Positions 5,800 through 14,509 of a stretch of 46,659 nt of DNA are shown here, piece by piece. Under the pieces are notes generated by a model. That model worked only from the letters and a program-made list of their open reading frames with translations. It searched no databases and was not told the origin of the DNA. The position numbers were made by a program, and so were the translations under genes. How positions within the stretch are numbered: position 1 is the first letter of the stretch; each line of letters starts with the position of its first letter. Source of the DNA: Desulfobacterales bacterium (GTDB lineage: Bacteria; Desulfobacterota; Desulfobacteria; Desulfobacterales; JAUYIZ01); contig JAUYIZ010000099.1 of NCBI GenBank assembly GCA_030688615.1, forward strand, positions 1-46,659, in the 5' to 3' direction.

Positions 5800-6846
5800 T
5801 TAACCGGCTATCCGCAATTGATCGATCGGCATCGAAGGATCCGACAAAACCGTCAGGGTGCGGATGTGAAATTTATCTTTTAAAATTTCAATATTCCTGT
5901 TTTTAAGCCCGCGCATTTTGGAAATACTGCGAGGGTGGACCTTGATTACCACCGTATCCTGAAAAAACGATCCGGCTGTCAAGGACGATACGGCCATATC
6001 CAGAAAGATTTCAGAGTGAACCATGTGACCGAATGCCGGATGATACGGTCCGGCCAATATGGCCGTCTGGTTTTCATCCCCCCCGGTGGACTGGAGCCCC
6101 ATGCGGATCACCGGTATTTTTTCCCCCTGGAAGATCAGATAAAGTTTTTTCACCATCGTCACACATTTCTCCAGGGGTATGGGAACATATCTGCCCTGTT
6201 TATACCATTGGCCAAGGCGGCTGTTTTCCAGGACGACGGTGGGATAAATCCTGACGAAATCCGGCGAAAGATCGGCGATCTGCCGGCCGGTGCGCAGGGC
6301 TGTGGCTTCATCATCGCCGGGAAGGCCCACCATCATCTGCAGCCCCACCTGGTAATTTTCTTTTTTTAACAAATGGACCGCCGCCACGGTGTCCGAGGCC
6401 GTATGGCATCTTCCGGAAATGTTTAAAACCCGGTCATCCATGGACTGGGCGCCCAGCTCGATCGTTGAAACAGGGTAATCTCGCAACCGTTCGAGCCGCC
6501 CGGCAGTTATGGTGTCCGGTCTGGTGGAAAACCGGATGCTGTCAACATGCCCCGCCCTGACAAAACCTGCCGCTTCGCCAAGCAGAGCCTCCAGTTTATT
6601 TTTTTCCAGGCCTAAAAAATTTCCGCCGTAAAAAGCCACCTGTATATTTTTTCGCGCAGCCGCCGGAAACTGGAGAAAGCTATGAATTATAAAACGGAGC
6701 TGTCCGGGCGAGGGGACAGGGCGATTTTCGCGTGTGACCGCGCGCTGATTGCAAAAAACACACCGGTGGGGGCACCCCGCCTGGGGCAAAAATACCGGGA
6801 TAATAAAAGGCCGGCGGCTAACCTCCCAAAATTTCCCGTCACCCAT
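5800..6846 (-). CDS. Radical SAM protein, Elp3-like without acetyltransferase domain
   Basis: The 348-residue enzyme should use a [4Fe-4S] cluster and S-adenosylmethionine. The cluster motif CPHRCVFC (CxxxCxxC) lies at about residues 25-32, followed by FYGGNF, RFSTRPDT, ELGAQSMDD and VGLPGDD, as in the Elp3-type radical SAM core. The GNAT acetyltransferase part of true Elp3 is absent. Its ATG overlaps the end of the PHP-RNase III gene by 8 bases, so translation is probably coupled. The substrate is unknown; a tRNA or other RNA would fit the neighbour but is only a guess. Confidence 0.8.
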   Translation of the reverse strand: MGDGKFWEVSRRPFIIPVFLPQAGCPHRCVFCNQRAVTRENRPVPSPGQLRFIIHSFLQFPAAARKNIQVAFYGGNFLGLEKNKLEALLGEAAGFVRAGHVDSIRFSTRPDTITAGRLERLRDYPVSTIELGAQSMDDRVLNISGRCHTASDTVAAVHLLKKENYQVGLQMMVGLPGDDEATALRTGRQIADLSPDFVRIYPTVVLENSRLGQWYKQGRYVPIPLEKCVTMVKKLYLIFQGEKIPVIRMGLQSTGGDENQTAILAGPYHPAFGHMVHSEIFLDMAVSSLTAGSFFQDTVVIKVHPRSISKMRGLKNRNIEILKDKFHIRTLTVLSDPSMPIDQLRIAG

Positions 6847-8434
6847 TGGTCTCCCGCATCAGGATTTCAAGAACTTTTCTTGCAGCATCCTGCTCGGCGG
6901 CCTTTTTACTCTTACCGCTCCCTTCCATTTGCAGAGAATCTATCATGATCTGCACATGGAAGGTTTTGTCATGATCCGGGCCTTCTTCCTGAACCACCCT
7001 GTAACTGGGGATACCTTTCTGCCGAACCTGGGTAAGCTCCTGGAGCTGGCTTTTACAATCCTGCGGCAGGGCGGTTGTCCATGTGGCGTCAATGAGGGGG
7101 CCGAAAAGTTCACTGACAATCCGGTACGCAGCCTCAAAGCCGCCGTCAGTGTACACCGCAGCGATGACGGCTTCAAACGCGTCCGACAAAATGGATTTTT
7201 TCCCCTGGCCGTTTGTCTGGACTTCACCTTTGCCAAGAAATATATAAGTTCCCAGATCAATGGTTTTGGCAATTTCAGCCAACTGCCCTTCATTCACCAG
7301 GTTGGCCCGCATCTTGGACAAATCCCCCTCGTTCAGATTCGGATGCTTTTGCATCAACAAATCTCCCGCCACGAGATTGATGACCGCATCCCCTAAAAAT
7401 TCAAGCCGTTCGTTGTCCTGAAGTGTCCCATCTTCCTGTTCATTCACAAACGAACTGTGGCAGAGCGCCTCCTGCAGTAAATCCGGGCGATGAAATTTAT
7501 AGGCCAGTTTCTGTTCCAGTTCATCCAAGTCTTTCCGACCCCTCCGAAGCACTTCCTGAACCGAACCTGATTTAACAATTTTTTCATACAGCTCATAAGG
7601 AACGAAAAGTCCGCCATTACCGGAACCCATCTTAATGCCGGGTTTTAAATCGCCGTGAAAATCCGTCCCCCCGGTTTTGAGCAAACCAATGCGGTCGGCA
7701 AGCTCTGAATAATAGGCGATGTATTCGGGCGAATGTTCCGGATAGTAAACCTCGATGCCTTTGAGTCCAAATGTCTTTAACCGGGCAATCAGGGCCTCAA
7801 GGGATTTGTCGCTGTCGGTCTGAACCAGGATGGGGTGAGCCAGGACAGGAATGCCCCCGGCCTTTATGATAATTTCAATGGCGCGGGCACAATCCAGGCG
7901 ATACTTGTCCGCATAAGCCGGTTTGCCATGGCCGATGTATTTGTCAAAAGCTTCATCGATGGATTTTACAAACCCCTTTTTAACCATCACCCTGGCAATG
8001 TGGGGCCGTCCGATCAAACTCTCACCGGCTTCCATTTCCACATCCGCCAGCGAGATGTTAAACCCGCAATCCCTCAGGCGCTGGATGATACGAGGATTTC
8101 TATTTCTTCTGGCCTCCTGCAGATCCTCCAGGGTAGCATTTAATTCGCCATGATCCAGGTCTATGGCATACCCGAGGATATGGAAACTGCCTTTTGCCTC
8201 GAACGGCGGCGGAAGCGCCGCACTGATTTCGATACCGGTGAGAAATTTCAGAGACGGGGGGATGCCGATTTGGGCCGCTTTCCGCGAGCCTTCAATTGTG
8301 TCGTGGTCTGTGATGGCAATCGCGCCGAGGTTAAGGTTTTGGGCCAGGGAGAGGATTTCATGCGGCGACAGGGTGCCATCGGATGCGTTGGAATGGATAT
8401 GAAGATCTATTCCAGCAGGTTTGCTATAAACCAA
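6839..8434 (-). CDS. PHP-domain phosphoesterase (RNase AM/TrpH-like) fused to ribonuclease III
   Basis: One uninterrupted 531-codon frame carries two enzymes. Residues ~7-290 are a PHP domain of the TrpH/YciV (RNase AM) type with the metal-ligand motifs DLHIHS (10-15), TDHDT (42-46), GIEIS (67-71), RPHIA (143-147), VLAHP (197-201) and TDFH (257-260). Residues ~303-452 are the RNase III catalytic domain with NERLEFLGD (341-349; Glu345 and Asp349 catalytic) and DAFEA (418-422; Asp418, Glu421). Residues ~458-527 are the double-stranded RNA-binding domain. The linker between the two parts is only about 15-20 residues. Both halves keep their catalytic residues. In E. coli, RNase III cuts pre-rRNA and RNase AM trims rRNA 5' ends, so the fusion may combine cutting and trimming. 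It overlaps the dksA-like gene by 11 bases. Confidence 0.93.
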   Translation of the reverse strand: MVYSKPAGIDLHIHSNASDGTLSPHEILSLAQNLNLGAIAITDHDTIEGSRKAAQIGIPPSLKFLTGIEISAALPPPFEAKGSFHILGYAIDLDHGELNATLEDLQEARRNRNPRIIQRLRDCGFNISLADVEMEAGESLIGRPHIARVMVKKGFVKSIDEAFDKYIGHGKPAYADKYRLDCARAIEIIIKAGGIPVLAHPILVQTDSDKSLEALIARLKTFGLKGIEVYYPEHSPEYIAYYSELADRIGLLKTGGTDFHGDLKPGIKMGSGNGGLFVPYELYEKIVKSGSVQEVLRRGRKDLDELEQKLAYKFHRPDLLQEALCHSSFVNEQEDGTLQDNERLEFLGDAVINLVAGDLLMQKHPNLNEGDLSKMRANLVNEGQLAEIAKTIDLGTYIFLGKGEVQTNGQGKKSILSDAFEAVIAAVYTDGGFEAAYRIVSELFGPLIDATWTTALPQDCKSQLQELTQVRQKGIPSYRVVQEEGPDHDKTFHVQIMIDSLQMEGSGKSKKAAEQDAARKVLEILMRETNG

Positions 8435-8786
8435 GTGCTTTTTCTAACGCCTCCTCTTTGGTTTTACATTCGATACACTGCGCGGTTACCGGCCGGGCCT
8501 TCAGGCGTTTGATTGAAATATCTTCGCCGCATTCTTCACATATGCCGAACGTGCCGCTCTCCATACGGTCCAGCGCCTCTTTTATCTTGCTGATCAGCTT
8601 GCTTTCCCGGTCCCGGATGCGCAGCATAAAATTCCTGTCCGCTTCCAGCGAAGCCCGGTCCGTGGGATCGGGAAAATTTTCCGTGGGAACCGTCATCCCG
8701 GTAACCGTGCTGCCCGCTTGTTTTAAAAGCTCTTCAAGATGATCGTTCAGGTACTTCCTGAAAAAATCTAAATCTTTTTTTTTCAT
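8424..8786 (-). CDS. DksA/TraR-family zinc-finger RNA polymerase regulator
   Basis: The 120-residue protein has the DksA layout: an N-terminal helical hairpin, the coiled-coil tip DPTDRAS (40-46) with the two acidic residues needed for action on RNA polymerase, and a C4 zinc finger CEEC...CIEC (Cys83, 86, 104, 107). DksA acts in the polymerase secondary channel with ppGpp to adjust rRNA and amino-acid promoters. An AAGGGTG site lies just upstream of the ATG. It is followed with overlap by the PHP-RNase III gene, which may couple control of rRNA synthesis to rRNA processing. Length is slightly shorter than E. coli DksA (151). Confidence 0.88.
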   Translation of the reverse strand: MKKKDLDFFRKYLNDHLEELLKQAGSTVTGMTVPTENFPDPTDRASLEADRNFMLRIRDRESKLISKIKEALDRMESGTFGICEECGEDISIKRLKARPVTAQCIECKTKEEALEKALGL

Positions 8787-12692: not shown

Positions 12693-13517
12693 TCATACTG
12701 GAACAAAACTTTCAACACCCCCTGGAAACGGCGCGGGAATTCGGATTTTCATCAGATCTTGCGCGATCACCAGGGGACCGGTGTAGGTTTTGCGGCATTC
12801 GTGCACCAGGTCGACATGATCGCACTCGGGGTAAAAGTGGGTCAGAACCAATTGGCGCACATGGGCCCGGGACGCAATGTCACCGGCCAGCGAAGGCGTA
12901 AGATGCCCTTCAACCTTCATGGCATCGGGCAGGGCGGATTCACAGATCAACAGGTCCGCATTTTCAGCCAAAATCACCAGGTTTTCACAATAATCCGTAT
13001 CCCCCGAATATACGATGGACAGCCCGTCGGGTCCGGTCAGCCGGTATGCAATGCTTTCGTCCCGGTGCCTCATGGGCATGGATTCCACGGTGACGCCTTT
13101 AACGCGGCAGACATCAGGACCGTGACTGTCCATTTCCTTCAAATTTAAAAGCCCGGGGGCAAGTTCGATCCAGGACCCGTAAACGTTTTTCAATTTGCCG
13201 AAGAAATCTGAAAATCCTTTTCCGGCCACTATCGTCAAGGGGGTTTGACGCTGGGCCGGGTCCGGATATTTGGTGGCAAACAGAAACGAGGCCAGTTCCC
13301 CGGTATGATCCGGATGGAAATGAGTCAACAGAATAAAAGAAATATCAAAAATCGTTGTGCCGGTTTCCAGCAGCCGCCACATGGTACCCGGGCCGGCATC
13401 GACCAGGAACCTTACCCCGTCCAGGAGGATCAGGGCCGAAGCGGCGCTGCGCTTCAAAGACGGCACACAGGTGCCGGAACCCAGAATAATTACGCTCGGT
13501 TCGGCTGTTGAGATCAT
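12693..13517 (-). CDS. MBL-fold metallo-hydrolase (RNase Z-like)
   Basis: A 274-residue metallo-beta-lactamase-fold protein. The zinc motif HFHPDHTGEL lies at about 66-75, with the later ligands in YSGDTDY and LTHFYPE, as in RNase Z-like hydrolases. It lacks an obvious RNase Z exosite arm, so tRNA 3' processing is possible but not shown. Its ATG overlaps the stop of the DHH phosphoesterase gene (ATGA), suggesting coupled translation and a shared nucleic-acid or nucleotide role. Confidence 0.85.
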   Translation of the reverse strand: MISTAEPSVIILGSGTCVPSLKRSAASALILLDGVRFLVDAGPGTMWRLLETGTTIFDISFILLTHFHPDHTGELASFLFATKYPDPAQRQTPLTIVAGKGFSDFFGKLKNVYGSWIELAPGLLNLKEMDSHGPDVCRVKGVTVESMPMRHRDESIAYRLTGPDGLSIVYSGDTDYCENLVILAENADLLICESALPDAMKVEGHLTPSLAGDIASRAHVRQLVLTHFYPECDHVDLVHECRKTYTGPLVIAQDLMKIRIPAPFPGGVESFVPV

Positions 13518-14509
13518 TTTATGCCGCGCCCTGCCTTTTTCTCAATTTGACCCACGATCCAGCTGAGCATTCTTTTTTCATCTTTATGGTCCACAAGTGC
13601 CCGGATATCCGGGAGCAGAATTTCAGCCCGGGCCATGCTCTTATGGCCGCCGGCCGAGCCGAGGCGGCCGAAGGCTTTCGCAGCCACCTTGCCGGCATCT
13701 TTGCGCAGACCGTCATTTCTGAACACGATGATCAGTTTGTTTTCACAGGACCCGGCGACAATACTCCAGGTGATCGAATGCACTCTCATAAAAAAATCGG
13801 CGATCAATACACAAACATCTCCGTTGCCCACGGGGCCGAGATTGACGAATATCCTGGATCGGTTGATCCGCATGGTCAGCAAGGCGTCCTTAAAATGTTT
13901 CAGAAAATCAAGGCGCAGATCGGCCTGTTCGATCTTGCGGGCAAGATGTATGTTGGCATGCCGGAAAAGAAACTGAAACGCCTTGAGATCTTCGCTCAAG
14001 GTCTTGCGCTCGAAATTGCTGGTATCGGTCTTAATGGCACAAAACAGGCCGGTTGCCAGTTTGGCCGACGGCTTTATTTTCGCAGATCTCAAATATTCCG
14101 TCAGGATGCTGGCCGTCGCGCCGTAGCGGGGCCGTATATCCTGGTAAAGGGCTTTCAGGCCGGTTTCAGGGTGATGGTCAATCACCACATCCGCTCTGAA
14201 TTTTAGAAAAGTTTCATGGTGACTCGGTTGAGAGTCCACGATGACGACACGGGAATACCGGTCTGTGTCGATTTCATTGAGCGGTTTCAGTTTCACCCCC
14301 AACAGTTGAATCAGGGCGATGTTGTCCGGGCGTTCGACAATGTTAACGCTGGCTATGGTTGTGGAGGCGACTTTCCGCCAAAGCAGCCTTTTGACGGCCA
14401 TGGCGCTGGCAATGGCATCCGGGTCGGCATTGATCAAAATCAGGACATGCGCATCGTTTGGAAAGCAGCTGTAAAAGCTTCTTAATTTTTTGGTTGTCGA
14501 ATAGGTCAT
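13514..14509 (-). CDS. DHH-family phosphoesterase (NrnA-like)
   Basis: The 331-residue protein is a DHH/DHHA1 phosphoesterase. Metal-ligand motifs are NADPDAIASAMA (27-38), VIVDSQPSHH, and the name-giving VIDHHP; the C-terminal DHHA1 domain has GSAGGHKSMAR. NrnA-type enzymes degrade oligoribonucleotides or phosphoadenosine phosphate, and relatives cleave cyclic dinucleotides. It is the first gene of the long minus-strand train and is divergent from the V-ATPase operon with 140 nt between them. Confidence 0.87.
   Translation of the reverse strand: MTYSTTKKLRSFYSCFPNDAHVLILINADPDAIASAMAVKRLLWRKVASTTIASVNIVERPDNIALIQLLGVKLKPLNEIDTDRYSRVVIVDSQPSHHETFLKFRADVVIDHHPETGLKALYQDIRPRYGATASILTEYLRSAKIKPSAKLATGLFCAIKTDTSNFERKTLSEDLKAFQFLFRHANIHLARKIEQADLRLDFLKHFKDALLTMRINRSRIFVNLGPVGNGDVCVLIADFFMRVHSITWSIVAGSCENKLIIVFRNDGLRKDAGKVAAKAFGRLGSAGGHKSMARAEILLPDIRALVDHKDEKRMLSWIVGQIEKKAGRGIK

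Follow-up and report, generated by a model that had tools for sequence, protein, structure and literature searches.

An RNase AM-like PHP domain joined to RNase III in one gene of Desulfobacterales

The window, by which we mean the whole stretch of 46,659 nucleotides analysed, contains on its minus strand a single open frame that joins an RNase AM-like PHP phosphoesterase to RNase III. Judged from sequence trees, this php-rnc fusion arose several times within the order Desulfobacterales, and a functional link between RNase III and a PHP enzyme of this type is well supported. We lean, by a little, towards a ribonuclease of two activities, in which RNase III would cut dsRNA and the tethered RNase AM-like PHP domain would trim the resulting 5'-phosphate ends. 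Trimming of rRNA 5' ends by the fusion would be plausible. The gene, its parts and its neighbours are located as follows.

6839-8434, minus strand: php-rnc fusion gene, 531 aa, TTG start (frame reading and Pfam/NCBIfam profiles)
7598-8410, minus strand: PHP domain of the RNase AM / 3',5'-nucleoside bisphosphatase type, residues 9-279 (Pfam, NCBIfam, ligands and fold match)
7526-7597, minus strand: linker, residues 280-303, for which the prediction gives two short helices, of low confidence around residues 291-300
7526-7545, minus strand: possible internal start of a free RNase III, GGAGG at 7541-7545 and TTG at 7526-7528, 12 nt apart
7070-7525, minus strand: RNase III catalytic domain, residues 304-455, with E345, D349, D418 and E421
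6860-7060, minus strand: dsRNA-binding domain, residues 459-525 (PF00035)
8424-8786, minus strand: dksA, overlapping the fusion gene by 11 nt (8424-8434); TIGR02420 140.6 bits, cut-off 115.5
5800-6846, minus strand: gene of a radical SAM protein (PF04055 and PF16199), overlapping the end of the fusion gene by 8 nt

The fusion gene and its two halves

The frame is uninterrupted from the TTG at 8434 to the stop codon at 6839-6841, a length of 531 codons. An earlier note had described it as a single frame of that length containing PHP, RNase III and dsRNA-binding domains, which is borne out by the frame itself and by the Pfam and NCBIfam scores. A stop or frameshift between residues 280 and 305, named there as counter-evidence, is absent from the window sequence. 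Alignment places the TTG start at the position of the ATG of relatives (window LVYSKPAGIDLH, L007 MDYSEQAGIDLH). The window genome is a single draft assembly, 93% complete and with 6% contamination. A genome-wide search found one copy of RNase III in this draft, the one in the fusion; hence, within the limits of a draft genome, the fusion gene must provide the RNase III of the cell. The PHP protein of this type is also single, the remaining PHP matches being weak stretches inside large proteins. The predicted structure of the fusion (mean pLDDT 89.9, pTM 0.61) has two well-folded halves, whose mutual placement is uncertain at this pTM.

The PHP half scores 37.0 bits against the Pfam PHP model (cut-off 26.4), and the Pfam and NCBIfam profiles locate the match at residues 9-270. 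Its metal ligands are H12, D19, H44, E69, H85, H200, D258 and H260, and all eight are invariant in 127 distinct sequences (48 fused and 79 split), as are R109, R112, R143 and F163 of the 5'-phosphate/base pocket. In E. coli RNase AM, the three metals are held by H13, D20, H45, E72, H83, H198, D255 and H257, the 5'-phosphate pocket consists of Arg107, Arg110, Arg141 and Phe161, and Arg201 forms a salt bridge to sulfate/phosphate (PMC9410882). The PHP metal motifs listed in the earlier note are present, though the list omitted the metal ligands Asp19 and His85, and His145, which it had included, is absent from the ligands reported for the E. coli enzyme (PMC9410882).

The likeness to RNase AM claimed before is upheld by the fold. 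Of the PDB folds, that of RNase AM from V. cholerae (9etk) matches the PHP half best, with TM 0.84 by target length; a Bifidobacterium PHP enzyme and CV1693 are also among its best matches. RNase AM (YciV/TrpH, Rnm) of E. coli and V. cholerae (7ug9, 9etk) has the same fold, with TM 0.84-0.85 by target length, and shares all metal ligands and the Arg/Arg/Arg/Phe pocket, at ca. 23-29% identity. Unlike RNase AM, the PHP half is joined to RNase III, scores 157.1 bits against the NCBIfam RNase RNM equivalog, below its cut-off of 375, and has the Arg201 equivalent replaced, position 203 being Leu, Ile, Phe or Ser in all 127 sequences and never basic. CV1693 of C. violaceum (PDB 2yb1) is the best PDB sequence match and goes with the highest NCBIfam PHP score, that of NF041577 (3',5'-nucleoside bisphosphate phosphatase). 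Unlike CV1693, the PHP half reaches 185 of the 400 bits that the equivalog cut-off asks for, is without the arginine of AHPGR, and is fused. The curated scores certify it neither as an RNase AM nor as a bisphosphatase. One fused protein, L175 (genome G035), carries about 46 additional residues in its PHP domain, inserted behind the AHPG motif close to window residue 206.

The second half matches Pfam Ribonucleas_3_3 with 138.8 bits (cut-off 35) and dsrm (PF00035) with 58 bits at residues 461-525 (cut-off 23), and residues 306-523 reach 249.7 bits against NCBIfam TIGR02191 ribonuclease III (cut-off 166). Its PDB fold matches are the RNase III enzymes of E. coli, Thermotoga and Aquifex. The catalytic residues E345, D349, D418 and E421 had been assigned before and are confirmed, each being present in all 48 distinct fused proteins; they correspond to E41, D45, D114 and E117 of E. 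coli RNase III. As the active-site residues of both PHP and RNase III are intact, the catalytic competence claimed for the protein is supported at the level of sequence. Bacterial class I RNase III (Rnc) has the full catalytic domain and dsRBD in common with this half; the fusion, unlike it, bears an N-terminal PHP enzyme of 300 residues. Position 418 (E. coli D114), which is Asp in the 48 fused proteins, is Asn in 24 and Gly in four of the 79 split relatives (L005, L017, L029, L132 and others), where it varies even inside one family. No conclusion on a link between Asp418 and fusion is drawn, because the association comprises just three independent contrasts.

The junction and the neighbouring genes

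The linker measures 36-78 nt across the fused clades and 48-51 nt in nearly all members of f36, the family richest in fusions. At the window junction, the GGAGG-TTG pair, with its TTG at residue 303, has a duplex energy of -10.0 kcal/mol, which is better than that of 96% of the other in-frame NTG codons of the gene and makes it the strongest SD-like site among the fused junctions examined. Judged from this motif, the window gene, which keeps GGAGG and TTG at the old rnc start, may yield a free RNase III as well as the fused one. Eleven of the 48 fused junctions, several of them in f36, are without any in-frame start codon, and RNase III can therefore be made there only as the fusion.

The strength of this site also speaks for a different account, namely that the fusion in the window is recent or a one-base assembly error, with RNase III made mainly as a free protein from the internal GGAGG-TTG. 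The close relatives of the window on the tree are split, and a single draft genome with 6% contamination agrees with that account. Yet the frame is intact over its 531 codons, 80 further genomes have an open frame of this architecture, and the best start of split rnc genes is ATG, not TTG, in 74 of 81. We consider this account improbable.

The gene order dksA-php-rnc-radical SAM is conserved. The upstream dksA-like gene with its overlap, as described in the earlier note, is real, in that nucleotides 8424-8434 are shared and the TIGR02420 cut-off is passed, and its linkage turns out to be a conserved one: dksA lies upstream at all 94 split loci and at 50 of 51 fused loci. Downstream, the radical SAM gene is found at 88 of the 94 split loci and at 45 of the 51 fused ones. 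At some loci (L087-L091) dksA-php is present without rnc, so the link of dksA to php may predate that to rnc. Elsewhere in the window, 13514-14509 on the minus strand encodes a DHH-family-like protein whose matches, all of them weak, are to models of pyrophosphatase, A-adding tRNA nucleotidyltransferase and NrnA.

Linkage to dksA points to a setting of growth control, and E. coli RNase AM removes FAD caps both in vitro and inside the cell (PMC9410882). Both points would suit a PHP half that targets capped or metabolite-tagged RNA 5' ends (e.g. FAD caps), or regulatory dsRNA products, instead of rRNA; we give this very little credence.

Recurrence of the fusion among relatives

A search for the PHP plus RNase III architecture in relatives, as the earlier note had advised, found the fusion open in 81 of the 389 genomes of the order Desulfobacterales, which argues that it is not a product of chance. 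In eighty of these a single row covers both halves with no stop in it; the remaining one has an insertion and is open by locus. Several of the open fusions are located in closed chromosomes, and these, together with the 80 cases other than the window, rule out a sequencing artefact as the general cause. The 81 genomes fall in nine family codes, of which f36 holds 64. We take f36 to be the Desulfobacter family because its sequences group with a Desulfobacter postgatei record (L047); Eth-SRB1 (L033) is a further fused case. Within f36 the fused state is fixed, and none of the 64 genomes in the sample has reverted.

In nearly all Desulfobacterales genomes with a readable region, php adjoins rnc. 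Most relatives have them as two genes with one in-frame stop, a short gap, or an overlap in another frame between them. Constant separation in relatives, named earlier as grounds for dismissal, is therefore not what is found: most are separate, yet fusion has come about repeatedly and has reached fixation in one family. The many single in-frame stops between php and rnc raised the idea of conserved stop-codon readthrough, which was rejected because the stop differs in type and position between relatives and because, in many pairs, the two genes lie in different frames, with an ATG of their own. Among 395 genomes of the phylum outside Desulfobacterales no fusion was found at E <= 1e-95, and a scan of genome contigs found no rnc downstream of PHP relatives outside the order, including Clostridiales and PVC records.

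On a tree of the 127 joined PHP and RNase III sequences the fused state needs ten changes; a careful tree of 48 requires nine (bootstrap 9-10), of which at least four are forced by well-supported branches. A single clade of fused proteins is rejected by the AU test on the latter tree (p-AU 3e-82), and with it one ancient fusion followed by later splits. Single fission events may still have occurred within this history.

Repeated loss of a stop could also be a by-product of tight operon packing, the halves acting independently and the PHP domain being a housekeeping enzyme that dephosphorylates 3',5'-bisphosphates (pAp) or short oligonucleotides. In most relatives the adjacent php and rnc have short or overlapping junctions, among NCBIfam models that of the 3',5'-nucleoside bisphosphate phosphatase comes closest (185 bits, above the 157 of RNase RNM), and the fused state is hard to reverse once an internal start is lost. 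Nevertheless, dksA and the radical SAM gene are equally close, and neither is fused to the php-rnc frame at those junctions in the loci examined; and the 64 f36 genomes are fixed without reversion in the sample, nearly all keeping a linker of 48-51 nt. We hold this explanation to be a real possibility, though short of probable.

Proposed function and significance

The proposal of a two-activity ribonuclease is based on what is seen in the sequence, namely the open frame, the intact active sites, the gene linkage, the repeated fusion and the family-wide fixation. We infer that both halves are active, that the protein dimerises, that products are handed over between the halves, and that rRNA is the main substrate. 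The RNase III half, as a homodimer, would cut dsRNA such as the leader-trailer helices of pre-rRNA and leave 5'-phosphate ends. The tethered PHP half would bind the 5'-phosphate in its Arg109/Arg112/Arg143 pocket and, by its three-metal centre, take nucleotides off these ends or off short 5'-phosphorylated fragments.

RNase III products carry 5'-phosphate ends. In a closed genome with the fusion, the mature ends of 23S rRNA are bordered by a long leader-trailer helix of -106.5 kcal/mol, compared with -57.6 +/- 6.1 kcal/mol for shuffled sequence. By the same simple method, the 16S leader-trailer helix of this genome is not clearly above shuffled sequence. In E. coli, RNase III and RNase AM are among the enzymes that process the ends of pre-23S rRNA (PMC10250234). 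Given this processing, the 5'-phosphate ends and the 23S helix, the most economical reading is that the products of RNase III would pass to the PHP half.

RNase J, another 5'-3' exonuclease, is matched in 27 of 27 genomes, those of the window and of the 26 relatives tested, and two genes of the window genome exceed the curated cut-off for RNase E/G (G000:C83:2018-3316 and G000:C377:8207-9418). The fusion is therefore not the sole possible 5' trimmer, and the idea that it replaces RNase J was rejected on the 26 of 26 matches. In G150 and G171 (family f29), the RNase J matches cover residues 1-313 only; G150 has a second RNase J part ca. 0.87 Mb away with a stop inside, which suggests a broken or split RNase J. 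Since most relatives manage with separate php and rnc genes, tethering is not essential.

For these reasons the 'one-protein rRNA maturase' of the earlier note is unsupported as worded: RNase J and two RNase E/G genes are present, the PHP half is below the RNase RNM cut-off (157 of 375) and misses Arg201, and a free RNase III is possible from the internal start. A bolder version of the two-activity ribonuclease would make it a processive two-step enzyme: its RNase III dimer would cut the pre-rRNA helix, and each of the tethered PHP domains would trim the fresh 5'-phosphate end on the spot. Throughout the Desulfobacter family this would be the enzyme that normally matures rRNA, and it would be regulated together with DksA. 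We regard this version as unlikely.

PHP and RNase III are known families; what appears to be undescribed is that they are joined, that the joining recurs and that it is fixed in one family. The literature searched, a scope outside which most subscription journals lie, contained no published fusion of a PHP domain and RNase III, and to that extent agrees with the earlier note, which knew of no description. The fusion proteins are of ordinary size, which puts the idea within reach of assays on recombinant protein and of 5' end mapping in Desulfobacter cultures. That two enzymes have fused repeatedly is strong evidence of a shared substrate path. Here such fusion ties RNase III to an RNase AM-like PHP enzyme in bacteria distant from E. 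coli, in which rRNA 5' maturation appears little studied, and where the fused gene is without an internal start, RNase III, elsewhere a stand-alone enzyme, is obliged to bear a second catalytic domain.
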